Part shown: positions 1 through 56,983 of the stretch, one piece after another
Layout: each line of letters starts with the position of its first letter
Numbering within the stretch: the first letter of the stretch is position 1
From: Gammaproteobacteria bacterium Gsub
GTDB lineage: Bacteria > Pseudomonadota > Gammaproteobacteria > PS1 > Pseudothioglobaceae
DNA: 64,000 bases
Assembly (NCBI GenBank): GCA_002007405.1
Contig: JYIN01000005.1
Location: 1 to 64,000, forward strand
Direction: 5' to 3'
Notes under the pieces: generated by a model
Told to the model about the DNA's origin: nothing
Databases searched by the model: none
Seen by the model: the letters and a program-made list of their open reading frames with translations, nothing else
Made by a program: the position numbers and the translations under genes

Positions 1-152
1 GACTCTGCCAAGTTAAATGTAACGGTTCCCATCTCTGGTAGAGGGTTAGTAATCGCAAGACTAGTAACCGAACTAAAACTTCCAGGACCCGCATTGGCTA
101 GCGACACAAACCCAATCATTGTAAATAATAATGTTTTTATTAAATGTTTCAT
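1..152 (-). CDS. Exported protein, 5' end only (cut by window edge)
   Basis: The reading frame starts at ATG 150-152 and runs off the left edge. An AAGGA ribosome binding site lies about 6 nt upstream. The N-terminus (MKHLIKTLLFTMIG, then FVSLANA) is a classical Sec signal peptide with likely cleavage after ANA. The mature part seen (GPGSFSSVTSLAITNPLPEM and on) is Ser/Thr-rich and lacks Cys, as in many secreted or surface proteins. The gene lies 35 nt downstream of another minus-strand ORF and may share its transcript. The family cannot be named from about 50 residues. Confidence 0.6.
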   Translation of the reverse strand, partial: MKHLIKTLLFTMIGFVSLANAGPGSFSSVTSLAITNPLPEMGTVTFNLAE

Positions 153-187
153 ATCAATTCCTTAGTTAATCTAATATTTTTATTCTG

Positions 188-727
188 TCACCTTATGCTA
201 AACAAAATACCGTCACTCTTATTGTTAGCAAAATCTATTTCTCCAGTTGGTATTTCCCCTGATAGTCTTCCTATAATAGGGTCAAAATTAAAACGACCTC
301 CAATCCCATTTGCCACTCTTACTCTGAAAATAAATTGCAGAACACTGCTATGAAATGGGGAGAATTTACCACCATTTGCAATATATCTCATATAAAACTT
401 TGCAATATATCTCATATGAAACCTATCGCCAGTATTAATCTCACCACCAACCACTTCCCACTTTGCATTTTGAATGGCTATTTCCCTATTATCAGCAGGG
501 TCAATAATACTGGTAACTGAGGTATCAAAATCATTAAAAGTCATACGAATATTATCCATGTTTTCACGAATCACACTAAAAGTGAATGAACCATTGTTAA
601 TGCCTCCTACCACTTCTGCCATCTCTACACTCACACCAATTTCATAAGTTTTACTAAGGCTGTCTTCTTCAACAGGTGTTAACTGAGTAAGGTCAGCAAT
701 TCCACCATTAGTATATATAAAAGCATT
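188..727 (-). CDS. Hypothetical protein, possibly frameshifted at its 5' end
   Basis: The open frame ends at 188-190. In-frame starts are ATG 727, GTG 634 and ATG 622; none has a good ribosome binding site. The frame stays open to a stop at 743-745. Around 711-730 a run of five T (minus strand) precedes a segment (NGGIADLTQLTPVEEDSLSK) that reads as good coding sequence, so a one-base slip may have cut this from a longer protein. Composition is polar, without Cys or a signal peptide. Residues MRYIAKF/MRYIANG come from a 24-bp tandem duplication. I do not recognise the family. Its position beside an exported protein suggests a surface-protein module or remnant. Confidence 0.4.
   Translation of the reverse strand, partial: NAFIYTNGGIADLTQLTPVEEDSLSKTYEIGVSVEMAEVVGGINNGSFTFSVIRENMDNIRMTFNDFDTSVTSIIDPADNREIAIQNAKWEVVGGEINTGDRFHMRYIAKFYMRYIANGGKFSPFHSSVLQFIFRVRVANGIGGRFNFDPIIGRLSGEIPTGEIDFANNKSDGILFSIR
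375..422 (-). repeat. 24-bp tandem duplication inside an ORF
   Basis: Two adjacent 24-bp units (375-398 and 399-422) are identical except for one base (tata versus tatg). The duplication is in frame and adds eight residues to the minus-strand protein. Confidence 0.9.
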
Positions 728-857
728 ACGCGCTGCAAAAATTACAAGGGATTGCGCACATCTAATTATGTATTATACTTTTCTCATATTTTTCTCATTG
801 TACCTGCAACTATCGCCCTAAAACCCACTTAAATCCTCACGGAAAAAGCCGTTCGGG

Positions 858-872
858 TAAGGTCTGACCTTA
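858..872. repeat. 15-bp near-perfect palindrome (TAAGGTC-T-GACCTTA)
   Basis: Two 7-bp arms flank a single central base, in the spacer between ftsQ and the accessory ORFs. A related half-site (AGGTCAGG) lies at about 906-913, at the ftsQ stop. It may be an operator or a REP-like element; nothing in the sequence decides between them. Confidence 0.5.
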
Positions 873-912
873 CAATATTATTTCTAATTTTTATCTGTTG
901 CTCCCAGTTAGG

Positions 913-1674
913 TCAGGGCATCTTTAATGCAAAGCCCTTAGGATAGCGCATATCAAAGGTCGCGTGTTTGATTTTTGAGTTTTTCTTACTTAATTTATTA
1001 TAGGCCTTGATAAATCTTTGTAGCCTTTGCTTTTGTTTTTGATAGCCCAGAACCACTTTAATATTGGGTTTGAATGTGAGTTGGTCAATATTTGTTTTAG
1101 AAAATTTAGTGATTTGTAGCGGGGCGGCGAGTGTTTGATAATGCTGATAATCTTTATAAAGTTTAGCAATTATGGCGCTATCTGCCTTTGAACGCGCTAT
1201 CGGGGCATTAGATTGTAGTATTTTTTGAGGCATAAATAAAACCCCTTGGGTGGAGATATAGCCCGTGCAATGAGGTCTATTTTCATTTTTGCAGTTTGTA
1301 TTTTGCCAGCGCATGGCGACTTTTCGTGCCTTAATCTTGATTTGAATGGCATTTAAAAATAGGCGCTTAATATCGGCTTTTTCTACCCAAGCCTGTTGTT
1401 CTAATGTTTGTTTAATCGCGCGTAAATCAAGCAGGTAGTTATTCTCAATTAAGGGCTGTATTCTGCTCATTAACACAGTTTTTTCAAGCACCGCTGTTGG
1501 CTCAATCTTCCAGTTGATATTCACTGCTGGGAATTTAATAAAATCGGATTTTAAAATAGACCAAATAATGGCGATTAGCCCCATCAAAATAAATAATACT
1601 TTGCCAATGAGCATAAGCCACTGATGCAGAGTTTTTTTACGCTTATTGTGTCGGACGGTGTTCTTACTACGCAT
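913..1674 (-). CDS. ftsQ: Cell division protein FtsQ
   Basis: FtsQ is a bitopic inner-membrane protein that links FtsB/FtsL to the early divisome. A basic cytoplasmic tail (about 1-20) is followed by a membrane segment (about 20-42, WLMLIGKVLFILMGLIAIIW). A POTRA-like stretch (about 48-115, with the typical 'QQAWVEKADIKR' segment) and a beta domain follow. The length of 253 aa is near the usual 250-280. Its start overlaps the ddl stop by 8 nt, so the two are translationally coupled. In most gammaproteobacteria ftsA and ftsZ follow directly; here the cluster ends and surface-protein ORFs come next. Confidence 0.9.
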   Translation of the reverse strand: MRSKNTVRHNKRKKTLHQWLMLIGKVLFILMGLIAIIWSILKSDFIKFPAVNINWKIEPTAVLEKTVLMSRIQPLIENNYLLDLRAIKQTLEQQAWVEKADIKRLFLNAIQIKIKARKVAMRWQNTNCKNENRPHCTGYISTQGVLFMPQKILQSNAPIARSKADSAIIAKLYKDYQHYQTLAAPLQITKFSKTNIDQLTFKPNIKVVLGYQKQKQRLQRFIKAYNKLSKKNSKIKHATFDMRYPKGFALKMP

Positions 1675-2545
1675 TTAAAATAGACAAAACTAGGGCATCA
1701 AAACTCAAACCAGCTGCTTTGGCCGCCATTGGTGCTAATGAATGTTGGGTCATCCCAGGGATGGTGTTAATTTCTAAAAGTTGTGGATTGTTGTCGCTGT
1801 CAATTATAAAATCAATCCGCCCCCAAGTTTTAGCACCCAGCACATTAAATGCTTTGAGTGCGATTTTTTGTAGTCGTTGTTCGCCAGCATCTGTTAGCCC
1901 ACAAGGGCAAAGATAGCGGGTTTTATCGCTGTGGTATTTTGATTCATAATCATAAAAACCTTGATTGGTAACGATTTTTATCGCTGGCAACGCTCCACCA
2001 TTTAGAATGGTAACACTATATTCCTCGCCCTCAATCCACTTTTCGATCAGCACTTGTGAGTCATATTGCCAAGCCAGTGCCAAAGCTTTGTCTAATTCTG
2101 CCAAATGCCTAACTTTGCTGATGCCGATGCTAGAACCTTCTAAAATCGGCTTAATTGCCCAAGGCAGGCTAAACTCAATTTTTGGAATCGAGTGCCCAAT
2201 ATTCGCCAACGCCCAAGGAGGGACCGGTAACCGATGCTGATTCCAGATGGTTTTGGTGGTGTCTTTGTTTATACACCGCTTGGAAGAACTTGAGTTTGAG
2301 CCTGTATAAGCAATATTGCGTTTTTCTAGTTGTTGCTGAATGGTGCCATCTTCGCCACCACGACCATGCAAAATAATAAAAGCACGGTCAAAATCGCGCG
2401 TCCAAAGCTCGGATAGATTATTACCACACCAATCAAATTTAAAGCAATCAACGGCCTGATTTTTTAAAGCACGATAGATGGCGTTGCCACCATCCAAAGA
2501 AACCGCCCTCTCAGCAGAATTACCCCCCATCAATACTGCAATCAT
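1667..2545 (-). CDS. ddl: D-alanine--D-alanine ligase
   Basis: ATP-grasp ligase that joins two D-alanines for the peptidoglycan pentapeptide. The N-terminus 'VLMGGNSAERAVSLDGG' is the family signature with the conserved Ser. 'ILHGRGGEDGTIQ', 'KPILEGSSIG' and the metal-binding 'LLEINTIPGMTQHS' near the C-terminus complete the active site. At 292 aa it is slightly shorter than E. coli DdlB. It overlaps murB by 4 nt and ftsQ by 8 nt. The dat gene at 39797 could help supply its D-Ala. Confidence 0.95.
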   Translation of the reverse strand: MIAVLMGGNSAERAVSLDGGNAIYRALKNQAVDCFKFDWCGNNLSELWTRDFDRAFIILHGRGGEDGTIQQQLEKRNIAYTGSNSSSSKRCINKDTTKTIWNQHRLPVPPWALANIGHSIPKIEFSLPWAIKPILEGSSIGISKVRHLAELDKALALAWQYDSQVLIEKWIEGEEYSVTILNGGALPAIKIVTNQGFYDYESKYHSDKTRYLCPCGLTDAGEQRLQKIALKAFNVLGAKTWGRIDFIIDSDNNPQLLEINTIPGMTQHSLAPMAAKAAGLSFDALVLSILNA

Positions 2546-3375
2546 ACAATCACTACTTCGGTTTCTAAATCAATGCTAAATTTTGCTTTGACGGTTTGCT
2601 GAATATGCAAAATCAATTTTTCAATATCTGTTGCACTGGCATTATTTTGGTTGATGATAAAATTGGCGTGTTTATTACAAACGCAAGCACCACCGATGCA
2701 AAAGCCAGATAAGTTTGCCCCTTCAATCAGTTTAGCAGCAAAATGGGGCTTTGGATTTTTAAACACACTACCACAATTTGCCTGCCCAATAGGTTGTGTT
2801 GCACGGCGTTTTGCCAGCAGAGTTTTGATGTCTTGCTGTTTTTGGGTTTGTCCAAATTTAAATGCGGCGGCGATGAAATATTCTCCCTCATTTTTGCCAT
2901 AAACTTGACGATAACCAACCTCAAAATCTTTCTTGTAGCGCTCAAATACCACACCTAATGCGTTGATTGTTGTAACTGATTTAACAAATTGCCAAATTTC
3001 AGCACCAAAAGCACCCGCATTCATCGCCAAAGCGCCGCCGACACTGCCTGGAATTGTGGATAAAAATTCCGCACCATGTAGCCCCTGCGATTCACAAAAC
3101 CGTGAAATCTTGGCTAAACTTGTACCCGTACCAGTATGGATTATGCCATCAAAAATATTAAGCCAATTAAGATTTTTAAGTGCAATTACCACACCTTTAA
3201 AACCACACTCACGCACCAACAAATTACTGCCCAGACCCAGCATTAAAATAGGTTTTTGATTGTGTTTTAAAAAATCAGCCAAATCATCAACCGTTTCAGG
3301 AACAAAAAAATCTTGCGCCAAGCCGCCTGCGCGTAGTGAGCAATGTTTGCTCATTGCCTCATTATGAGTAAGCAT
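2542..3375 (-). CDS. murB: UDP-N-acetylenolpyruvoylglucosamine reductase
   Basis: FAD- and NADPH-dependent reductase making UDP-MurNAc, the second committed step of peptidoglycan synthesis. The FAD-binding 'LGLGSNLLVRE' segment, 'STIPGSVGGALAMNAGAFG', 'CGSVFKNP' (catalytic Ser in SVFKNP) and the C-terminal 'ETEVVIV' are all present. At 277 aa it matches the shorter type II MurB rather than the ~340-aa E. coli form. It overlaps murC by 14 nt and ddl by 4 nt. Confidence 0.95.
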   Translation of the reverse strand: MLTHNEAMSKHCSLRAGGLAQDFFVPETVDDLADFLKHNQKPILMLGLGSNLLVRECGFKGVVIALKNLNWLNIFDGIIHTGTGTSLAKISRFCESQGLHGAEFLSTIPGSVGGALAMNAGAFGAEIWQFVKSVTTINALGVVFERYKKDFEVGYRQVYGKNEGEYFIAAAFKFGQTQKQQDIKTLLAKRRATQPIGQANCGSVFKNPKPHFAAKLIEGANLSGFCIGGACVCNKHANFIINQNNASATDIEKLILHIQQTVKAKFSIDLETEVVIV

Positions 3376-4768
3376 TTTTTAGTAATTCGGGCAGGCTGTG
3401 AATATCGCCAGCACCTAAAGTCAAAATAATATCATTTTTTTGCACAATGTTGGGCAACACCTTTAAAACTTCGTCGGTATTTTTAACCGCAACTACTTCT
3501 AATGACGAATGTTGGCGGATAGCAGATGCCAATGTAGCGGAGGTAATGTGGGCAATGGGGGGCTCGTTGGCGGGGTAGATATCTAACAAAATCAATCCCC
3601 CGGCTTTTGATAAAACTTGTACAAACTCGGCGAACAAATCCCGTGTGCGAGAGTGGCGATGTGGCTGGAAAATTACCAGCAAACGCCTATCAACATAGGT
3701 ATTTTGCAAACTCTCAAAAACTGCGGCAATTTCATTGGGATGATGTCCATAATCATCAAATAATGATACTTTGGTTTTTTCCACACCCAATATCCCATGA
3801 TAATCAAGACGGCGAGCAACGCCTGGGAAATTTTGCAGTGCAGTTTGAATAACCCCAATATCAACATTAAGCTCACGCGCCACCCCGATAGCCGCTAAGG
3901 TATTTAAGATATTGTGTTTGCCAATGAGATTGAGCATAATGGGAAATGGTTGCTGGTTTTTAATCACCACTTCAAAGTGCATTTGGCGCTCAATTTGGGT
4001 AATGTTACGCGCTTGGATATCAGCCCCATCTCTCAAGCCATAAGTAATCAAAGATCGGTGAATATGGCTTAGTATATCCCTCACCCCTAAATCATCATAA
4101 CATATAACACAAGCGCCGTAAAAAGGCAGGTTGGAAGTAAAATTAACAAATGCCTCGGTTAGTTTTTGGTAATTATTGTCATAGGTTGCCATGTGGTCTT
4201 GGTCAATATTGGTAATGACACCGAGCATTGGCTGTAAGTGCAGAAAAGACATATCAGATTCATCAGCCTCAGCGATTAAATAATCGCCCCCTCCCAGTTT
4301 TGCGTTAATGCCGCTGGAGTTTAGAATGCCACCAATAATATAGGTTGGGTCTAATTTAGCAACCGTGAGAATATGGGCAATCAAACTGGTGGTTGTGGTT
4401 TTGCCATGAGTGCCTGCCACCGCAATGCCAAACCTAAAACGCATAATTTCTGCCAACATTTCTGCTCTGGGAACGATAGGTATGCCTAGTTTTTTTGCTT
4501 CAACAAGCTCTGGATTGCTGGCATCAATAGCACTGGAAACAACCACAGCTTGTGCGCCAATGATATTATCAGGGTGATGTTGATGGCTAATTTTACAACC
4601 CAGATTTTGCAATCTTTGGGTGGTTACAAAGGCATCAATATCTGATCCTGAGACTTGATAATTAAGATTGTGTAATACCTCAGCAATACCACTCATGCCT
4701 GAGCCACCAATGCCAATAAAATGCAGTTTATGAATTTTAGAACGAAAAGCGATGTGTAGATTATTCAT
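3362..4768 (-). CDS. murC: UDP-N-acetylmuramate--L-alanine ligase
   Basis: Cytoplasmic Mur ligase adding L-Ala to UDP-MurNAc. The N-terminal Rossmann motif (FIGIGGSGMSGIAEVL), the ATP-binding P-loop (GTHGKTTTTSLIA), 'EADESD' and the C-terminal 'DDYGHHPNEI' and 'LTLGAGDIH' motifs are visible. The length of 468 aa is normal. murG and ftsW, usual upstream partners, are absent; ispF sits there instead and overlaps by 8 nt, so the ancestral mra/fts cluster has been broken up. Confidence 0.97.
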   Translation of the reverse strand: MNNLHIAFRSKIHKLHFIGIGGSGMSGIAEVLHNLNYQVSGSDIDAFVTTQRLQNLGCKISHQHHPDNIIGAQAVVVSSAIDASNPELVEAKKLGIPIVPRAEMLAEIMRFRFGIAVAGTHGKTTTTSLIAHILTVAKLDPTYIIGGILNSSGINAKLGGGDYLIAEADESDMSFLHLQPMLGVITNIDQDHMATYDNNYQKLTEAFVNFTSNLPFYGACVICYDDLGVRDILSHIHRSLITYGLRDGADIQARNITQIERQMHFEVVIKNQQPFPIMLNLIGKHNILNTLAAIGVARELNVDIGVIQTALQNFPGVARRLDYHGILGVEKTKVSLFDDYGHHPNEIAAVFESLQNTYVDRRLLVIFQPHRHSRTRDLFAEFVQVLSKAGGLILLDIYPANEPPIAHITSATLASAIRQHSSLEVVAVKNTDEVLKVLPNIVQKNDIILTLGAGDIHSLPELLKNAYS

Positions 4769-5240
4769 AACTTGAGACTGTAATTATACTCAAAACTTGA
4801 ACCCCTTCACCTTTGCCAAAAGCGCTCAGCCCCTCACCTGTGGTGGCTGTGATGCCAATATCGGTGACGGTGATATTGAGTAAATTGGCAATTGAGGTTT
4901 TTATTTCTTCAATCTTAGGCGATATTTTTGGCAACAAACACTCAATAGCAATGGCAACATGACTAATCTGCCAGCCGTGCAAATCACCCAGTGCAAGTTG
5001 TAAATATTGGGCACTATCAGTAACCCCGCGTTGGCAAAGTTCATCAGCCTTAGCGCCCAGTATGTTGTTGCCAGTGATGGACGAGATGGCATTTGTAAGT
5101 GCGTGCAAAACGACATCGGCATCACTATTGCCACGCAAACCTTGTGGATGGTCAAATTTCACACCACCTAAAATAAGGGTTTTGTTCCCCTTGCTTGCAA
5201 ATGCGTGCGAGTCTTGTCCTAATCCAGTTTTTATTTTCAT
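4761..5240 (-). CDS. ispF: 2-C-methyl-D-erythritol 2,4-cyclodiphosphate synthase
   Basis: Fifth enzyme of the non-mevalonate isoprenoid pathway; forms the cyclic diphosphate with loss of CMP. The metal-ligand motif 'GLGQDSHAF' at the N-terminus, 'GNSDADVVLHAL', and the C-terminal 'TATTGEGLSAFGKGEGV' are diagnostic. The length of 159 aa is typical. First gene of the minus-strand ispF-murC-murB-ddl-ftsQ run. ispD, its common partner, is not adjacent. Another pathway gene, ispH, lies at 61408. Confidence 0.97.
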   Translation of the reverse strand: MKIKTGLGQDSHAFASKGNKTLILGGVKFDHPQGLRGNSDADVVLHALTNAISSITGNNILGAKADELCQRGVTDSAQYLQLALGDLHGWQISHVAIAIECLLPKISPKIEEIKTSIANLLNITVTDIGITATTGEGLSAFGKGEGVQVLSIITVSSYE

Positions 5241-5314
5241 AGACGCTTGATTTTACCCTTGCTTAGAACTTGGCATAATTCAAACTTGCTATTTTTTCTA
5301 TTGGTTATTTAGTA

Positions 5315-8300
5315 ATGGCTGTATACTGGCAATCTATGAATAGGTTACTTATTTTTTTTGTTAAACAGAAAAAATTAGCGTTGGTTTTTACCTTGTTGGT
5401 TATCGTGGTGGGTTTGTTTTCTTTATCTAATATTCAAAGGGATCAATTTCCCGCAGTGGATTTTGAAGTGCTCACCGTTACTACCGCCTATCCGGGCGCC
5501 TCTCCTGAGGATGTTGAGCAAAATGTTACCAACCCAATAGAAGATGAATTAAAGACGGTCTCAGGGATTGAGGAGTTTAGTTCGATTTCTCGTGAGGCAG
5601 TGTCGAGTATTTTGGTAACACTTTCGCAAGATGTGAGTGATATTGAGGCGTTAAAACAAGAAGTTCGCAATGCCGTTGAGCGGGTCAAAGATTTTCCAAG
5701 AGAAGTGGTTGATCTGCCTCAGGTATTAGACCAAAAAAGCTCGCTTAGGAATATTTTAAAGGTTAATATTAGCAGTGAAACTCTGCCTTTTTCGGTGCTT
5801 AGAGACAGTACTGATGCGATTGCCAGAGAATTGGAATTGATTGAAGGCGTATCCGAGGTGGTTAAGGAGGGTTATTTAGACAGAGAAATTCAAATTAGGG
5901 TTAATGTTGATAAATTGTATCAACATAAATTATCTCTGCCCCAGGTTATTGAGGCGATTGAGGGGCGTAATCAGCGTTATACTGTAGGCAATAATAATGC
6001 TACGCTTGATGAAAAAATCATCGTGGTTCTGGCTAAATTTGATGCTGCACAGGCGGTTGGTGATGTGATTGTTAAATCAACTTTTGATGGTCCTGTGGTG
6101 CGTCTCAAAGATATTGCCCAAATTACCGATGGCAGTGTTGAGGAAAAATCTATTGTTCGCATTAACAGCACCAAGGCTTTTATTTTAAAAATTCGCAAAC
6201 AAGAACGCGCCGATATTATTGCCACAGTGGATTTAATTAAGGAAAAATTACAAGATCTACAGGCCAAAAAATACCAACAACTAAAGATTTTTTACTCTTC
6301 TGATTTGTCTCAATATGTGCGTAATCGCTTAAATATTGTTACCAATAATGGCTTGATTGGGCTAGTGTTGGTGTTGGTTGTATTGGGGATATTTTTGTCA
6401 TTGAAAACCGCATTTTGGGTGGCAATTAGTTTGCCTGTATCCCTACTGGGGGCAGTAGCACTGTTAGGGGTGGTGGGCGAGACAATTAACTTAGTGTCTT
6501 TGGCAGCTATGATTTTAGTGCTGGGGATTGTGGTTGATGACTCAATTATTATGGCAGAGAGCATTCATCATTTTAAACAACTGGGCGAGGACAAATATAG
6601 GGCGGCTGCACATGGTTTTAGGCGGGTTATCATGCCAGTAGTTACCACCATACTAACTACTATTTTGGCATTTTCATCAATGTTTTTAATGACTGGGACA
6701 ATGGGCAAATTTATCTATGTTATTCCCTTAGTGGTGATTTTTGCCTTAGGTCTTTCTTTTTTAGAGGTAACCGTTGCTTTGCCTGCACACCTCGCTGGCT
6801 TGAATGAAAAGCCCACTCCAAGTGGGTGGTTTAGTTATGTTGAGAATTGGTTTGTTGGATTTTTAAGCAAGGTTTTAAAAATGCGTTATTTTGTGGTGGC
6901 AATATTTGTGATTGTTTTGTTTTCTTCGGTGTATTTTGCCATGACTCAAATGCGTTTTACTCTTTTTCCTACAGTGGGCGCTGATGTTATTAACGCTAAG
7001 TTACAAATGCCAGCAGGCAGTTCGGTGCAACATACAGAAAAAATCAGCACTACAGCAGAAAAACTAATTACTGAGGTGGTCGGGCAGGATTTAGATTCAC
7101 TCACCAATAGTATTGGGCAAAATTTTACTTATGTGGCAGATTTTGATATTGATTTAGTGCCCTCTGGAGTGCGAAAACGCCAAGCCAAAACGCTATTGTT
7201 AGAATTAAAAGAGAGTGCCAAACAAATGCCCAAAAATCATAAACTCACCTTTTCAGTCCGTCGCCCAGGTCCACCACAGGGTAAGGATATTGAAATTTAT
7301 TTGATTGGTAGTGATGACGAACAACGCCAGGATGCGGCGAATGCTTTGGAGAAAATTTTATCTAATATAGAGGGCTTAGATGATATTGACCGCGATGATA
7401 AATTAGGAAAATCACGCATTGAGGTAGTGCTTGATTTTGAAAAAATGGCAAGATTAGAAGTTGATTTTTTAACTGTGAGTCGTTATCTAAAATCCGCTTT
7501 TACTGGCATTGATGTTACCAATATTCGCTATGGTGATACCGATGTTGACTTTCGTATTTATCTGGGCAATTTATCACAATCAGAGGATTTTATCACCACC
7601 CTTAAAATCAACAATAGAAGAGGGCAGCCAGTGCCACTTAAGCAATTTTCACATATTCGTCAAATCTCTGGAGAGCCCGATTTTAATCATTTTGATGGAC
7701 AGCGCTCAGTGATTATTAGTGGTAGCGTTGATGACCAAATAACCACCTCTCAAGAGGTTGTTAAAAAAGCCTTAAAACAACTAAACGCACAATCTTTATA
7801 CCCCAATATTCGCATCCTTAGCGAAGGCGGGGCGAAAGAGACACAGGAATCTATGAAAAGTCTTTTACAAGCCTTTATTATGGCAGTTTTTGTGATATTT
7901 TTATTGTTGATTTTGTTGTTTAATTCCTACACCCAGCCACTGCTGATAATCAGTGCCATTCCTTTTGCAATTGTTGGGGTTATTTGGGCATTTTTCCTCC
8001 ATGGCGAGCCGATTAGTTTTTTTGCCATGCTCGGCACTTTGGCGTTAATTGGGGTGATTGTCAATGATTCTTTGGTGATGGTGGCACATTTGAATTACCT
8101 ACAAAAAAAATTAGCCACCACTACTTCTATATTTGTATGGGTTGTGCAAGGTGCAAAAGATCGCCTGCGGGCAGTTATATTAACTTCACTAACGACTTTA
8201 GCAGGTGTTGTCCCTTTAGCATACGGGCTGGGCGGCAGTGATTTTATTCTTAAACCGATGGCATTGTCATTAGGCTACGGCTTGCTATTTGGCACCACAA

Positions 8301-51096: not shown

Positions 51097-52893
51097 TTAT
51101 TTTAAATATTTTTTGATGTTAAGTCGGTGTTGTTGATAGGTTTTTGCAAAGGCGTGAGTGCCATCTTTTTTAGCGACAAAATACAGTGCATCGCCGGCTT
51201 CTGGGTGCATGGCAGCATTCAGTGAAGACGCGCTTACAGAGCTAATGGGAGTGGGTGGTAGGCCTTGGTGTCGGTAAGTGTTATAAAGGCTATTAAATTT
51301 TAAATCTTGTTTTTTTAATGTACCATGATAACTTTTGCCCAGAGCGTAAATAACACTGGGGTCAGTTTGCAGGCGCATGCCTTTTTGCAAACGGCGTATA
51401 AATACTCCTGCTATTTTTGATTTTTCCTGATTATGCGCGGTTTCTTTTTCAATCAATGAGGCTAATATTAAGGCTTCATCAGCGTTTTTTAAGGGTAGAT
51501 TTTTTGCTCTATTTTGCCAAGCACTTGCCAGTTTTTGTTGCATTATTTGGTGGGCGAGTTTTAGAACGCTAACCACACTATCGCCATAATTAACTCGATA
51601 AGTATCAGCCCAAAAATACCCTTCATATGGAGGCTTTATTCCTGTTAATTGCATAGTTTGATTAAAATTACCCACTGATTTAAGTGCCTTATTTTGGCTC
51701 AGTTGTTGGTAATAATCAAAAATAGTTTTACCCTCAACTAAGGTAATTTTTCGCTTTGCAACCTGGGCGTTGGCAAAATTATTTAACAAAGTGGCTATCC
51801 CCATATTTGGCATAAGTTGATAATAACCGTGCTTTAATTTCTCGTCTTTATTTAATAATTTTGCCAATACAAACATGTATTTAGCAGAATCAATATAGCC
51901 TAAATTCTCTAAATTACTGGCGACGCTATGAATATTTGCCCCTGCAGGTAGATGATAAATAGTAGATTTTTGTAAATTGATATCTTTAACGCTATAAAGC
52001 CAAATGCCCAGTAATAACAGCAAAATAATCAATAGTCTTGACCATGAAAAATAACGCCTATGTTGAACTGGCTTTGAATGTTTGGGTGAATTTTGCAAAC
52101 TCAAAACCGCATCTTGAATACGCTGGGTTATATTGTCTGAGTTAAACAAATGCCCATTGATTTCATTCACGGGTTTTACCCCAATCACTGCGTTAGTAAT
52201 AAATATTTCATCACAATCAAGTAATTCTGGTAAAGACAATGCTTTGATACGCACCTGCAAATTCAGATCATTGGCCACGGCTAAAACCATCGTCCGGCGC
52301 GTGCCTTCAATGCCACACTTTGATAAATCAGGCGTTAATAAAACTCCAGAACGAATAGCAAAAATATTGCCCTGGGTAACCGAGATGACTTGCTGGTTTT
52401 CATCTAACATGATGCACTCATCAGCACTCATGCCACTTCTGGCTAATATTTGCTCAAGACGATTGCAATGCTTAATAGCCGACAATAATTGATTACTGCT
52501 ATAGCCACTACGACAAGTGGTAAGAGTGTATTTTTGGGGTATTTTCTCAGGCATTTTTGAGACTATAACCACACGCGTTGGGTGGATATTTTTCTCAAAA
52601 CCATAGCCCCGCATTGTCGTCCCACGAGAGAGTATAATTTTCACTACGCCGTGGTTTAATTTGGCAATTGATAGGGCTTTGGCAATATCTTTTAGCCAGA
52701 ATTTTTGGGCAATGGGGTTAATTTTAAGTTGTGTGCGACCTTTTTCTAATCGCGAAAAGTGAGCTGCCCAAAATAATAACCTGCCCTCAGCAAACAAACA
52801 AGTTTCAAATACCCCATCGCCAAATTGAGTGAGGCGATTAAACACACTTAACTTAGATTGCTTTTTTCCATCAATCAATATAATGCTACGCAT
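51097..52893 (-). CDS. pabC-mltG: Fused aminodeoxychorismate lyase-endolytic murein transglycosylase (PabC-MltG)
   Basis: 598 aa. Residues 1 to about 265 are a class IV PLP enzyme of the PabC type: 'FGDGVFETCLF', 'LSRGTTMRGYGFEKN', the PLP Lys in 'LSAIKHCNRLEQILA', and 'EGTRRTMV'. A membrane helix (about 283-302, LLIILLLLLGIWLY) leads to an MltG/YceG domain: a LysM-like 'IYHLPAGANIHSVASNLE', then 'LVEGKTIFDYYQQL'. The catalytic Glu is in 'LASLIEKETAHNQ', followed by 'LQTDPSVIYALG'. In E. coli these are two adjacent genes. The lyase would be cytoplasmic and the murein enzyme periplasmic. Confidence 0.92.
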   Translation of the reverse strand: MRSIILIDGKKQSKLSVFNRLTQFGDGVFETCLFAEGRLLFWAAHFSRLEKGRTQLKINPIAQKFWLKDIAKALSIAKLNHGVVKIILSRGTTMRGYGFEKNIHPTRVVIVSKMPEKIPQKYTLTTCRSGYSSNQLLSAIKHCNRLEQILARSGMSADECIMLDENQQVISVTQGNIFAIRSGVLLTPDLSKCGIEGTRRTMVLAVANDLNLQVRIKALSLPELLDCDEIFITNAVIGVKPVNEINGHLFNSDNITQRIQDAVLSLQNSPKHSKPVQHRRYFSWSRLLIILLLLLGIWLYSVKDINLQKSTIYHLPAGANIHSVASNLENLGYIDSAKYMFVLAKLLNKDEKLKHGYYQLMPNMGIATLLNNFANAQVAKRKITLVEGKTIFDYYQQLSQNKALKSVGNFNQTMQLTGIKPPYEGYFWADTYRVNYGDSVVSVLKLAHQIMQQKLASAWQNRAKNLPLKNADEALILASLIEKETAHNQEKSKIAGVFIRRLQKGMRLQTDPSVIYALGKSYHGTLKKQDLKFNSLYNTYRHQGLPPTPISSVSASSLNAAMHPEAGDALYFVAKKDGTHAFAKTYQQHRLNIKKYLK

Positions 52894-52925: not shown

Positions 52926-53660
52926 ATGAAAAGAATGCTCAAGCAATTTATTAAAAATCTAGTTGATAGTGTTAAAGATTTAACACCTATTATCTTGGTT
53001 ATCGCTTTTTTTCAAATTGTGGTGTTACAGCAAAGTATCCCAAATTTGGGTGATATTATTATCGGTACTGGCTTTGTGTTATTAGGCTTGACTTTATTTA
53101 TATACGGACTTAAATTAGGACTGTTTCCCATTGGTGAGACCTTAGCCTATGCTTTTGTTAAAAAAGGCTCAATTTTTTGGCTACTGTTGTTTGCCTTTGC
53201 CCTAGGTTTTGGCACCACTGTTGCTGAACCGGCACTCATTGCAGTTGCCAATGAAGCTGCAAGCGTAGCACAGATGGGTGGCATCATTGATAACACGCCA
53301 GTGCAACTGCATAATTATGCAAAAAACTTACGCTTTGCCGTGGCCACCTCGGTGGGAATAGCGGTTGTTATCGGGGTATTGCGTATTTTAAAGGGCTGGG
53401 CAATACAGCACTTAATTATTGCCGGCTATGTTTTGGTTATCACCACCACATTTTTTGCACCTGAGTTTATCATTGGCATTGCCTATGATTCTGGCGGTGT
53501 TACCACCAGCACCATTACTGTGCCACTACTCACTGCGCTGGGCGTGGGGTTGTCCAGTTCGATTCGTGGTCGTAATCCTTTGACCGATGGTTTTGGGATG
53601 ATTGCAATTGCAGCATTATTGCCCATCATTGCAGTCATGTTATTTGGAATTTTAATATAA
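52926..53660 (+). CDS. DUF1538 membrane protein, subunit A
   Basis: About 244 aa, with six or seven membrane segments. Characteristic DUF1538 motifs are '[18 protein letters not shown]' (about 95-112) and '[21 protein letters not shown]' (about 188-208), then '[14 protein letters not shown]'. Starts at GTG 52896, ATG 52926 and ATG 52935 are in frame; the middle one is taken. None has a strong binding site. It is divergent from pabC-mltG and followed by a paralogue. The function of DUF1538 is not established; the shape and context suggest a transporter or channel. Confidence 0.85.
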
Positions 53661-53732
53661 AATTAATTGAGACTTTCTAATGGAACCTGTGCAACTTTTA
53701 CATAATTATATAAAGGCCCGTTAATAGCAATT

Positions 53733-54476
53733 ATGAATTTAGGAAATAATTTTATCAACATGTTTTGGGATGTCATGCCAATTGCTTTGGTGCTTTTTGG
53801 TTTTCAGACGATTATTCTCAAACAAAAAATTCCCCATCTGAAAAAAATCATTGTTGGTTTTTTATTTGTATGGATTGGGCTGACTTTGTTTATCGTTGGT
53901 TTAGAGGTGGCATTGTTTCCACTGGGCAAGGTTATGGCAAACCAGCTCATCTCAAATGAATTTATTGGCGTTGGTACTTTGAGTTGGCATGACTATTATT
54001 GGGTTTATATTTTTTCTGCCAGCATTGGTTTCACCACTACTATCGCAGAACCTTCACTGTTGGCAGTCGCGATTAAAGCCAATCAAGTCTCTGGCAGTTC
54101 TATCAAAATATGGCCACTGCGTATTGTGGTGGCATTGGGTGTTGCATTTGGGATTGCACTTGGCAGTTTCCGAATTGTAACAGGTTTCCCACTGCATTAT
54201 TTTATTATTTGTGGTTATATTATCGTTCTGATACAAACCTACTTTGCACCTAAAAATGTGATTGCACTGGCCTATGATTCGGGCGGTGTTACCACCTCAA
54301 CGGTTACCGTGCCTTTGGTGACGGCACTCGGACTGGGGTTGGCAGGTGCCATCGAGGGTAGAAATTCTCTGATTGATGGCTTTGGACTGATTGCTTTTGC
54401 TTCGTTGTTCCCGATTATAAGTGTCATGGCGTATGCACAACTTAACGATTTTTTTAACCGTAAAAATTATAGATAA
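53733..54476 (+). CDS. DUF1538 membrane protein, subunit B
   Basis: 247 aa paralogue of the preceding gene, with the same two motifs: 'GFTTTIAEPSLLAVAI' and '[21 protein letters not shown]', then 'GRNSLIDGFGLIAFASLFPI'. Similar membrane layout. Together they look like a two-subunit or pseudo-symmetric complex. The two genes lie 72 nt apart. The P-II-like gene follows 15 nt later. Confidence 0.85.
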   Translation: MNLGNNFINMFWDVMPIALVLFGFQTIILKQKIPHLKKIIVGFLFVWIGLTLFIVGLEVALFPLGKVMANQLISNEFIGVGTLSWHDYYWVYIFSASIGFTTTIAEPSLLAVAIKANQVSGSSIKIWPLRIVVALGVAFGIALGSFRIVTGFPLHYFIICGYIIVLIQTYFAPKNVIALAYDSGGVTTSTVTVPLVTALGLGLAGAIEGRNSLIDGFGLIAFASLFPIISVMAYAQLNDFFNRKNYR

Positions 54477-54491
54477 CCCTTAGGAGGAATT

Positions 54492-54842
54492 ATGCACTTT
54501 AAACTAATTATTGCCTTTGTTGATAGCGATAAAACCGAGCAGATTCTTGAATCTTCTAGAACTGCCGGTGCTACTGGTTCAACCATTATCTCTCAAGCAC
54601 GCGGTGAAGGTCTTGAGCACAATAAAACATTTCTGGGACTCAATGTAGAAACCCCAAGAGATGTATTATTGTTACTCGTAGAGCAGCACCTTTCTAGGAC
54701 TATCTTAGAAAGTGTTGCCAAAGCAGGAGATTTTGAATTTGATTCCAAAGAAGGCATTGCCTTTCAAATTGATGTTGAAGATGCAATTGGTGTTATGCAC
54801 CAAATAGAAGCTTTAGAAACTACCGTGGAGGAAAAATTATGA
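54492..54842 (+). CDS. P-II-like regulatory protein
   Basis: 116 aa with the P-II fold pattern: 'LIIAFVDSDKTEQILESSRTAG' (first beta-alpha), 'GSTIISQARGEG' (T-loop base) and a C-terminal 'GIAFQIDVEDAIGV' strand. The T-loop is short and lacks the uridylylated Tyr of GlnB, so it is not a normal nitrogen P-II. A strong AGGAGG site precedes the ATG. Its place directly after two membrane genes suggests it gates them, as GlnK does for AmtB. Confidence 0.82.
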   Translation: MHFKLIIAFVDSDKTEQILESSRTAGATGSTIISQARGEGLEHNKTFLGLNVETPRDVLLLLVEQHLSRTILESVAKAGDFEFDSKEGIAFQIDVEDAIGVMHQIEALETTVEEKL

Positions 54843-55231
54843 CAACGCCAATTTTAGTTAAAGATGTAATGTGGAAGCAAGTTGATATTGTAGATAGCAA
54901 ATGCACCGTTGAAAACGCCTTAAATGATATGCAACACAAAAAAACCAAGATGTTATTGGTTGATAGATCCCATCCTCATGATGAGTATGGTGTGGTGCTT
55001 ATCAAGGATATTGCCTCTAAAGTCATTGCCAAAGACCGTGCGTTAGACCGTGTTAATGTTTATGAAATTATGAATAAACCCACCGTCTCAGTGCATTCTG
55101 ATATGGATATTCGTTATTGTGCGAGGCTACTAACACGGTTGAATTTATCCCGTTGTCCAGTATTAGACAATGGCAAAATTGTGGGTGTAGTCAGTCTAAC
55201 CAATATCGTTTTTAATGGGTTAAGAGTATAA
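54839..55231 (+). CDS. CBS-domain pair protein
   Basis: 130 aa, two CBS repeats only: 'VKDVMWKQVDIVDSKCTVENAL' and 'VYEIMNKPTVSVHSDMDIRYCARLL', with 'GVVSLTNIVFNGL' at the end. Such pairs usually bind adenosine nucleotides. It overlaps the P-II-like gene by 4 nt (ATGA), which ties the two regulators together. Confidence 0.88.
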   Translation: MTTPILVKDVMWKQVDIVDSKCTVENALNDMQHKKTKMLLVDRSHPHDEYGVVLIKDIASKVIAKDRALDRVNVYEIMNKPTVSVHSDMDIRYCARLLTRLNLSRCPVLDNGKIVGVVSLTNIVFNGLRV

Positions 55232-55325: not shown

Positions 55326-55964
55326 ATGGGTGTTGTTATTGGTTTAATCAAATGGATATTGCTCATCATTGGTGCAATCAGTGTTTATTATGGTGCAATG
55401 TTGCAATTTAAATATAACGGTGTAACGGGAAAAATAATCAATGAAATATTCTCGCCAACCCTGCATCCGCAGGCGATGGAAAAAGTCTATATGCCGATGG
55501 CTAACAGATTGCTTGACAGTGGCGACATTACTATGGCAAGTATTCGCCGTATTGCGCTTGGGGATGATGTATCAATTGAAGACGCAGAAGAAGCCATGTC
55601 AAGCATTGCCACCGAGAGAAGCATTCGTGAAGTTGGTGTCCTGCCTTTATCAGAACAAGTTGAGATTCAATTAAAAGAAGCCGGCGACCCAAACTTCAAA
55701 CAACGCTATTTAAAAATATTCCAATATTGCTCGCCTAGAACAGCGATGGAAATGGTAGATTATTCTGATGCTTTTAGTGCGTATTTGCCTTGTCGTGTTG
55801 CTTTGATTGAGGATAAACAAGGTAAGCATTGGTTATATACCTTAGATATGGATCCGATGATCTACGGTGGTAAACCGCTACCACCAGCACTACACAAAAA
55901 AGCCCTGCAAGTACAAAAAACCATCTATGCCATCCAAGATGGTGGTGCGGCGGGTGATTTTTAA
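55326..55964 (+). CDS. Membrane-anchored DUF302 protein
   Basis: 212 aa. An N-terminal membrane helix (about 4-24) and a region of helical segments (45-130) precede a DUF302 domain: 'IFQYCSPRTAMEMVDYSDAF' (about 138-157) and 'YTLDMDPMIYGGKPLPPAL'. A strong AGGAGG site lies before the ATG. DUF302 proteins are common in sulfur- and metal-metabolising bacteria, but their function is not settled. It stands before a second MBL-fold gene. Confidence 0.82.
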   Translation: MGVVIGLIKWILLIIGAISVYYGAMLQFKYNGVTGKIINEIFSPTLHPQAMEKVYMPMANRLLDSGDITMASIRRIALGDDVSIEDAEEAMSSIATERSIREVGVLPLSEQVEIQLKEAGDPNFKQRYLKIFQYCSPRTAMEMVDYSDAFSAYLPCRVALIEDKQGKHWLYTLDMDPMIYGGKPLPPALHKKALQVQKTIYAIQDGGAAGDF

Positions 55965-56029
55965 AAAACCAATTTAACCACTACCAGCCTTGCTTATAAG
56001 TAAGGATTGTAAGCGAAGCAAGGTTAATA

Positions 56030-56983
56030 ATGACAAGCCCTATTTATGACCAATTAGGTTTTGGCATTACTTGCATTGACACACAGCATATGCGTCGTCC
56101 AGGATTTGTGGCAGTGTATTTGCTTGAAGATGCGGGGCGGGCTGCATTTATTGATACTGGCTGCTACCTCTCAGTGCCGACACTGCTATCAGTGCTTGAT
56201 GATAAAAATATAAAGCAAGAAAATGTTGATTTTGTCATCCTTACCCATATCCATTTGGATCATGCAGGGGGTGCAGGCAGACTCATTAAATATCTGCCAA
56301 ATGCAAAAATATATGTGCATGAATATGGGGCGCGTCATTTGGTTGATCCTGCTAAATTACGCGCTGGGGTAATTAGCGTCTATGGGGCGTTATTTTTTAA
56401 GCAATTTTTGGGTGATTTAGTGCCGATAGAAAAATCACGCATTGCCATTATCAAAGATGAGCAAAAAATCACTTTGGGCAAGCGCCGATTAAAATTTATT
56501 AACACCCCAGGTCATGCACGCCACCACGCCTGTATTTGGGATGAAAAATCGGGTGGTATTTTTAGCGGTGATACGCTGGGGGTGAGCTATCGTGAATTTG
56601 ACACCAAACAAGGGGCGTTGATATTTCCACCAACCACACCGATACAATTCGACCCCAACACTTGGAAAAATAGCATTCAAAAATTGATGCAGCTAAAACC
56701 AAAATACGCCTATTTAACCCATTTTAATCGCATTAAATTTGGGCAAAAATCTGCTGATATGTTGATTGAGCATATTGACGGGTTTGTGAGCATTGCTACT
56801 CGGTTAAAAAATGTAAAAAATCGCCATCAATCTATCAAACAAGCTTTACTTGCTTATCTACTAGAAATTGCTACCAGTCATGGTGTAGTACTTGACGAGG
56901 CACAACAAACTTATCTGTTTAAGGGCGATTTAGAAATTTGCGTCCAAGGACTCGAAGTTTGGTTGGACAGCCCTGATTTTTAA
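56030..56983 (+). CDS. Metallo-beta-lactamase-fold hydrolase (cytoplasmic)
   Basis: 317 aa without signal peptide. '[14 protein letters not shown]' is the HxHxDH site near residue 72. '[14 protein letters not shown]' and '[11 protein letters not shown]' give further ligands. '[13 protein letters not shown]' is a C-terminal His region. The family is broad (glyoxalase II-like or other hydrolases). Its 3' end overlaps the convergent pepA stop by 4 nt. Confidence 0.85.

Follow-up and report, generated by a model that had tools for sequence, protein, structure and literature searches.

Membrane proteins of the DUF1538 family encoded by adjacent gene pairs are known as antiporters from UmpAB of Halomonas zhaodongensis, a pair described in 2017 as a Na+(Li+, K+)/H+ antiporter that works best at pH 9 (PMC5484666). 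The umpAB genes were cloned through rescue of Escherichia coli KNabc on a fragment of four open reading frames with umpB as the last one, give tolerance of Na+ and Li+ and are functional in E. coli as a gene pair by itself, with UmpA and UmpB co-precipitating and both being required for full function (PMC5484666). Here, a stretch of 64,000 nucleotides from Gammaproteobacteria bacterium Gsub (contig JYIN01000005.1, positions 1 to 64,000; hereafter the window) was analyzed, in which a umpA-like and a umpB-like gene are followed by genes for a P-II-like and a CBS-pair protein, all four on the (+) strand. We propose, with a probability of about 0.62, that this operon encodes an antiparallel cation/proton antiporter of the UmpAB type gated by its own P-II protein, with the CBS protein as a second sensor acting together with P-II.

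Control of transporters by P-II proteins is likewise known, from GlnK and SbtB. As in the window, AmtB-GlnK combines a transporter gene with an adjacent gene for a protein of P-II fold, but the transporter is of another family and the window protein lacks Tyr51 as well as the ATP and 2-oxoglutarate residues. Since both other P-II genes of the Gsub genome precede ammonium transporter genes, forming two such pairs besides the umpAB operon, the third, divergent P-II beside umpAB repeats this transporter-plus-P-II plan. In SbtA-SbtB, a bicarbonate transporter has its own non-classic P-II-like regulator (PMC10710835), but again the transporter is a different one, and among the ten proteins scanned between 48272 and 59081 no sbtA-family neighbor was found. 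A P-II gene clustered with an H+/cation antiporter has been described for PII-NG; its partner, however, is the metal pump CzcABC and not a DUF1538 pair, and the available text of that report mentions no CBS partner (PMC7726332). CzcABC-type antiporters were also not found among the ten proteins scanned. According to a review, P-II control of transporters is apparently confined to those able to work as trimers (PMC10710835). As to DUF1538 itself, no link to P-II or CBS was found among the open-licence papers listed for DUF1538, UmpAB and P-II proteins with CBS or antiporters. The UmpAB paper does not present an antiparallel arrangement in its main text, from which the words P-II, PII, CBS, topology and antiparallel are absent (PMC5484666); for this arrangement, the literature covered is that on DUF1538 and UmpAB.

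A DUF1538 Gene Pair Followed by P-II-Like and CBS Genes

The operon and the motifs of its membrane proteins comprise the following features.

52926..53660, + strand: umpA-like gene, DUF1538 subunit A, 244 aa (PF07556, E 1.6e-66), N-terminus predicted to be cytoplasmic
53223..53231, + strand: AEP motif of UmpA (Glu101), helix break at 99-102 in the L025 fusion model
53484..53510, + strand: YDSGGVTTS motif of UmpA (Asp188), second-helix break at 192-198 in the L025 fusion model
53733..54476, + strand: umpB-like gene, DUF1538 subunit B, 247 aa (PF07556, E 2.3e-67)
54045..54053, + strand: AEP motif of UmpB (Glu106); A105, E106 and P107 invariant in alignment A4
54273..54299, + strand: YDSGGVTTS motif of UmpB (Asp182); D182, G184, G185 and T188 invariant in alignment A4
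54492..54842, + strand: P-II-like regulator, 116 aa, with shortened T-loop region and without Tyr51 (PF00543, 38.7 bits)
54839..55231, + strand: CBS-pair protein, 130 aa (PF00571, E 1.8e-17)

Thus, the gene set of the preliminary description, made from the sequence by a model, is present as described, including the overlap of the CBS gene with P-II, where start and stop codon share 4 bases. Both membrane proteins are clearly assigned to DUF1538 in Pfam (224 and 226.8 bits, cut-off 22.6), and the best NCBIfam models are UmpA for the first (352.7 bits) and UmpB for the second (315.1 bits), hence with A before B. As in UmpAB (PF07556; NF041627/NF041628), two homologous DUF1538 genes of similar length are direct neighbors. 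The motifs AEP and YDSGGVTTS are letter-perfect in both proteins, their Glu and Asp are invariant across the 62 rows of alignment A4 (49 UmpB and 13 UmpA), and E101, P102 and D188 of UmpA are conserved at 90% or more among 26 natural fusions of both subunits. While the preliminary description treated the pair as uncharacterized, with an unknown substrate and a cation- or anion-linked path, the first view is outdated by the work on UmpAB (PMC5484666); of the latter the cation-linked part stands, with acidic motif residues predicted in the membrane. Likewise, the proposed channel with two regulators becomes an antiporter pair with two predicted ligand-sensing regulators, UmpAB having been described as an antiporter that exchanges Na+, Li+ and K+ for H+ (PMC5484666). 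An anion channel was considered and rejected.

The host is a Thioglobaceae (SUP05-clade) bacterium with a genome of 1.37 Mb on 14 contigs, and the best named relatives of its UmpB are from Candidatus Ruthturnera, Thioglobus, Ruthia and Vesicomyosocius, with 77-81% identity for the top ones. The gene order is identical in 25 of the 25 loci found with the window's UmpB, A and B being fused in one of these (L025). As this order recurs and P-II follows DUF1538 in most of the units surveyed below, chance adjacency of the four genes was rejected. The spacer between umpA and umpB is 72 bases in the window, while the genes of the 25 relatives mostly overlap or almost abut. A fusion of A and B in the window, suggested by an open-frame value of 526, was rejected because of the TAA at 53658-53660, and a duplication within the spacer was rejected with a score of 30 versus a shuffled maximum of 36. 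Promoter-like sites (21 versus a shuffled mean of 14.1) and terminator-like sites (5 versus 4.0) were not used as evidence.

A close relative of the Halomonas UmpAB branch is found in Billgrantia campisalis (L027), where UmpB scores 498.2 bits (cut-off 500) and UmpA 436.5 bits (cut-off 490) and where the order is P-II, umpA, umpB, P-II, CBS (3882-6555), with P-II flanking both sides. Therefore, the characterized UmpAB branch has P-II/CBS partners, at least in that relative.

Within the window's family, DUF1538 was detected in 50 of 83 genomes, among them 8 of the 29 of group g216 and all 12 of group g217 (1.0 to 1.6 Mb, each with a DUF1538 pair), where the search was for DUF1538 alone. In two genomes of the family (G648:C1 and G665:C119), the DUF1538 match crosses in-frame stops, which may point to a broken gene or to an assembly error. 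In the Gsub genome, one PF00999 exchanger was found but neither NhaA (PF06965) nor MnhB (PF04039), other antiporter families not being searched; on this basis, much of the Na+/H+ exchange in this bacterium may be due to UmpAB.

Linkage of P-II to DUF1538

Of 398 genomes sampled across the window's phylum, 126 contain DUF1538. From these, 57 were picked for family spread before their neighborhoods were seen, and the 60 loci obtained comprise 62 DUF1538 units. Of these units, 57 have P-II downstream on the same strand at a distance of no more than 231 bases; P-II is also present in a unit met later (L120, G136). Of the five units deviating from this pattern, the pair of L035 has its downstream side beyond the stretch and P-II directly upstream. 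In a second sample of 198 genomes, from the phylum of the Flavobacteriales locus L028, all eight DUF1538-bearing genomes show one or two P-II genes directly after it. The same holds for nine of nine plasmid records found with UmpB, seven by annotation and two by our own scan, from Paraclostridium, Methylocystis, Subdoligranulum, Vescimonas, Acetoanaerobium, Peptoclostridium and Chelativorans and thus including Bacillota; the first DUF1538 gene of the Chelativorans plasmid is annotated as a short piece. Hence, P-II withstands the refuting case named in the preliminary description, that most genomes have DUF1538 without P-II/CBS neighbors. CBS follows in 30 of the 62 units, namely in 30 of 46 pairs or short fusions and in none of 16 long fusions, as well as in one of the eight genomes around L028; it is absent from all nine plasmid records. 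CBS is accordingly an accessory and not a fixed partner.

At the genome level, a search of the 398 genomes with the window's P-II (127 positive genomes) gave 119 genomes with both genes, 7 with DUF1538 only, 8 with P-II only and 264 with neither; the Fisher value of 8e-82 takes no account of relatedness and should not be read as a fair probability. Two of the seven DUF1538-only genomes were examined: G060 has a P-II when searched by profile (L079) and G245 is the genome of L073, discussed below. In the stretches examined of five of the eight P-II-only genomes (G022, G117, G129, G181 and G311), no DUF1538 was found.

Besides being adjacent, P-II and DUF1538 are paired by class. In all five compared genomes with two DUF1538 systems and adjacent P-II (G006, G021, G040, G065 and G138), the P-II of each system is far nearer to same-class P-II elsewhere than to its counterpart in the same genome; in G006, for instance, identity is 79% to those of the same class in other genomes versus 28% within the genome. 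In G138, a P-II located between both systems was scored by the script as belonging to the fusion, while it best matches P-II of pairs. Of all 99 P-II, 92 have their best match within their own DUF1538 class; the 99 comprise some nearly identical sequences from symbionts and count one genome twice (L028 and L097).

Among the DUF1538 plasmids with P-II and without CBS (L127-L135), the Methylocystis one is typed as mobilizable and the Chelativorans one as conjugative, and two P-II domains lie within one reading frame in five of six Bacillota plasmid records. Where P-II was met off DUF1538, it can be accompanied, at a distance of up to about 3 kb, by a gene of the AA_kinase family that reads as argB, by a GCS2 gene or by dus, and a tie of this subtype to arginine or glutathione synthesis is possible.

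The P-II-Like and CBS-Pair Proteins

With 38.7 bits against a cut-off of 25 for PF00543, the third protein belongs to the P-II superfamily. Its predicted structure (pLDDT 84) shows the PII fold with a C-terminal helix, and the top Foldseek matches in the PDB are PII proteins (e.g., 3lf0, E 7.3e-08), while sequence searches against solved structures with UmpB and the single P-II gave nothing useful. In classic P-II proteins, ATP and 2-oxoglutarate are bound by R38, Q39, K58, K90, R101 and R103, numbered here after the E. coli GlnB sequence. In the corresponding columns, the window protein has L, E, a gap, I, G and M, and Tyr51, the site of uridylylation, is replaced by Thr, in agreement with the divergent P-II without this Tyr proposed before; its loop does not contain any Tyr, and only 5 of 46 relatives have one somewhere in the loop. 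These six residues and Y51 are lost from most or all of the 46 DUF1538-linked P-II in the residue table, which covers 46 of the 100 P-II reading frames found. Moreover, five alignment columns past the base of the T-loop are missing relative to classic copies. Glycines and a threonine are kept, in contrast, at G27 (43 sequences), T29 (42), G35 (46), G37 (43) and G89 (45), and part of the nucleotide-pocket region is conserved:

54567..54611, + strand: GATGSTIISQARGEG, conserved portion of the P-II nucleotide-pocket region (residue table of 46 DUF1538-linked P-II)

A classic GlnB/GlnK system was rejected, as Tyr51 is absent and the ATP and 2-oxoglutarate residues are gone. From the residues kept and lost, we infer that the protein would bind a ligand of the adenosine type while lacking the classic site for triphosphate and 2-oxoglutarate.

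The closest solved relative of the fourth protein is the cyanobacterial CBS-CP12 (5nmu, E 3.2e-18), whose CBS pair aligns over residues 7-126 and thereby supports the earlier assignment as a CBS-pair protein, although the PF00571 match covers one stretch only. In contrast to CBS-CP12, the window protein has no CP12 part and stops at residue 130 after the CBS pair. In all 30 units with CBS, P-II is also present, and in the three genomes of family f60 with P-II located off umpAB (those of L056 and L060 as well as G156), CBS still adjoins P-II. Because CBS never occurs without P-II and stays beside it when both leave umpAB, a joint action of the two proteins is suggested by these gene positions. 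At L108 (about 144-3182), a malic enzyme-phosphotransacetylase gene precedes a pair of P-II and CBS off umpAB, and L109 may be arranged likewise (contig end, judged by eye).

Predicted Orientation and Fold of the DUF1538 Subunits

For the orientation of both subunits, Lys and Arg (K+R) were counted in loops drawn on the helices of a structure model of the L025 fusion, leaving out two UmpB pieces of L029 and the fusion L090 because of their length and setting to zero the N-terminal segment in the second half of the fusions. The counts for the seven loops are 4, 0, 3, 2, 1, 0, 2 in UmpA and 0, 3, 1, 2, 0, 1, 1 in UmpB of the window. In UmpA, K+R are more frequent on the membrane side of the N-terminus in 68 of 69 sequences (one tie), while in UmpB they are more frequent on the opposite side in 63 of 68 (two ties, three against); the halves of the fusions, L025 included, show the same opposite pattern in 26 of 26 cases each. 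The mean net loop charges alternate accordingly, with +1.10, -0.10, +0.30, -0.74, +0.77, -0.83 and +0.61 for UmpA and -0.88, +2.40, -2.09, +1.40, -0.34, +1.07 and -0.53 for UmpB, whose C-terminal tail carries +1.91. Because of this opposite loop charge bias and following the positive-inside rule, UmpA is predicted to have its N-terminus inside and UmpB outside, with the basic C-tail of UmpB in the cytoplasm, and both are thus predicted to form an antiparallel pair. Positive-inside reasoning has also been used for the UPF0016 family (PMC4067407). Like DUF1538, UPF0016 and DUF606 comprise gene pairs with opposite bias and natural two-domain fusions (PMC4067407), but these are separate families with three and five helices per unit.

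The model of the L025 fusion (530 residues, pLDDT 85.9, pTM 0.87) was built from alignment A3 with 26 of 27 fusions, the short L090 being left out; a mixed alignment, A1, was dropped since identity values suggested that UmpB rows had been placed on the N-terminal half of the fusions. In this model, each half contains two broken helices with the breaks at AEP and past YDSGG, the Glu and Asp being invariant or almost invariant across the 26 fusions, and its helices together with the alternating loop charge are compatible with seven helices per subunit, as read from a relative and not from the window proteins. A Foldseek comparison of the UmpA-UmpB model with the PDB gave no match at E 0.001 or better, and VIA-align resulted in a best Z of 6.1 over 101 residues without a clear relative. 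For a 530-residue model of the whole fusion, such a lack of fold match is no proof of a new fold.

Proposed Mechanism and Alternative Explanations

Antiport as such has been demonstrated for the Halomonas relative and the orientation is supported here by the charge bias, while for the steps of the mechanism we infer the following. UmpA and UmpB would form an antiparallel heterodimer with the N-terminus of UmpA inside and UmpB inverted, and the two broken helices per subunit would place the Glu of AEP and the Asp of YDSGGVTTS within the membrane, where these acidic residues might alternately bind Na+, Li+ or K+ and H+. P-II, presumably a trimer as in its family, would dock to the cytoplasmic face, i.e., to the cytoplasmic loops and the tail of UmpB. 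By analogy with GlnK-AmtB and SbtB-SbtA, its ligand-bound state could lock the exchanger in one state, most likely an inhibited one. The most likely ligand is an adenine nucleotide, whose binding would dispense with the triphosphate clamp of classic P-II. CBS might serve as a second adenylate sensor cooperating with P-II, as its family would suggest. At energy shortage, the cell could thereby halt spending proton motive force on cation export.

Several observations weigh against this reading. Both window proteins miss the NCBIfam equivalog cut-offs (UmpA with 352.7 of 490 bits, UmpB with 315.1 of 500), and the pair is therefore filed as DUF1538 relatives of UmpAB and not as UmpAB equivalogs. 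The loops of the charge test all derive from one model, and loop L5 in the second half of the fusions has the wrong charge sign. The P-II lacks the ATP-phosphate residues of the classic proteins and might bind no nucleotide at all. In CBS proteins, the Asp of the GxxSxxD motif has a role in the binding function, and in the second of these motifs the window protein has Asn instead, the first Asp being retained. Four units have no adjacent P-II inside the stretch examined (L056, L058, L060 and L073). As mentioned above, the genomes of L056 and L060 carry P-II and CBS next to each other outside the umpAB locus; the L058 genome has two DUF1538 systems with P-II beside just one of them, a fused DUF1538 (L126), and an extra P-II elsewhere (L110); and the P-II matches of the L073 genome (79 and 75 bits) stand alone and in the range of apparent classic copies of other genomes. 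Finally, the P-II of the five P-II-only genomes examined are either of this subtype away from DUF1538 or have other neighbors, and the subtype is also encountered off DUF1538 next to argB-like (L110, L117, L124), glutamate-cysteine ligase (L111-L113) and dus genes (L122, L124, L125).

The latter neighborhoods, together with the separation of P-II and CBS from umpAB in three genomes of one family, would be expected if both proteins were sensors merely co-transcribed with umpAB and directed, without contacting it, to other targets, for example, in nitrogen or glutathione metabolism. This explanation has some weight but is unlikely, as P-II follows DUF1538 in three phyla and also in a minimal plasmid unit, and the class-matched P-II of the five compared genomes are hard to explain without a functional link.

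Less probable still is an SbtA-like transporter of bicarbonate or another anion for carbon fixation, with P-II in the role of SbtB and CBS in that of CBS-CP12. The host clade is presumably chemoautotrophic, judging from its named relatives, the best solved relative of the CBS protein is the cyanobacterial one, and SbtA is indeed controlled by the P-II-like SbtB (PMC10710835). However, the sole tested DUF1538 pair exchanges cations (PMC5484666), and a profile of the window-type P-II matches classic PII chains at 1e-20 but SbtB just at 0.002, a comparison tilted by two classic P-II of this genome among the 48 profile rows. Furthermore, Paraclostridium, Vescimonas, Peptoclostridium and a Flavobacteriales genome, none of which is known to fix carbon in this way, also have DUF1538 with P-II. 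Even more doubtful is that P-II and CBS are stable subunits required for full activity of the antiporter, in spite of the near-constant P-II linkage and the tight gene overlaps, since P-II is lacking from some units and Halomonas umpAB alone complemented E. coli KNabc (PMC5484666), for which reason both proteins look like regulators and not like required subunits.

Flanking Genes

Downstream of the operon (55326-56983) lie a DUF302 gene and a metallo-beta-lactamase-fold gene. Among 12 Thioglobaceae-type loci (L006-L016 and L030), the former is present in 11 and the latter in 8, while neither was found in the 13 more distant loci (L017-L029). Upstream on the (-) strand (51097-52893), a single gene encodes a fusion of aminodeoxychorismate lyase (PabC) and endolytic transglycosylase MltG; in seven loci (L007, L009-L012, L015 and L030), the corresponding match is split across frames or comprises one part only, which may reflect either decay or separate genes.

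Implications for a Possible P-II Control of Ion and pH Balance

Most of the known direct targets of P-II proteins are transporters or enzymes in the metabolism of nitrogen and carbon. DUF1538 with its own P-II would be a widespread addition to the P-II-controlled transporters represented by AmtB-GlnK and SbtA-SbtB, and the company of P-II and this exchanger across very different bacteria suggests that P-II, whose best-known role is in nitrogen control, also governs ion and pH balance. Whether DUF1538 generally represents a new fold of an antiparallel 7+7 pair or fusion, with control by its own P-II trimer as the rule, CBS as co-sensor in one large clade and P-II control extending, in three or more phyla, to the homeostasis of Na+, K+ and pH, is in our estimation an even bet. 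The antiparallel subunits and their natural fusions would add an example of the possible origin of inverted-repeat transporters. There is also an ecological bearing, as UmpAB has been cited as a possible salt adaptation of cable bacteria (PMC10030654, PMC12093952), DUF1538 is listed in a gene table for predicting growth pH (PMC13255231) and the pair is retained in every g217 genome. If a Na+(K+)/H+ antiporter is indeed served by a dedicated P-II in three phyla, this would broaden the picture of P-II signaling and tie the energy state of the cell to its ion and pH homeostasis.

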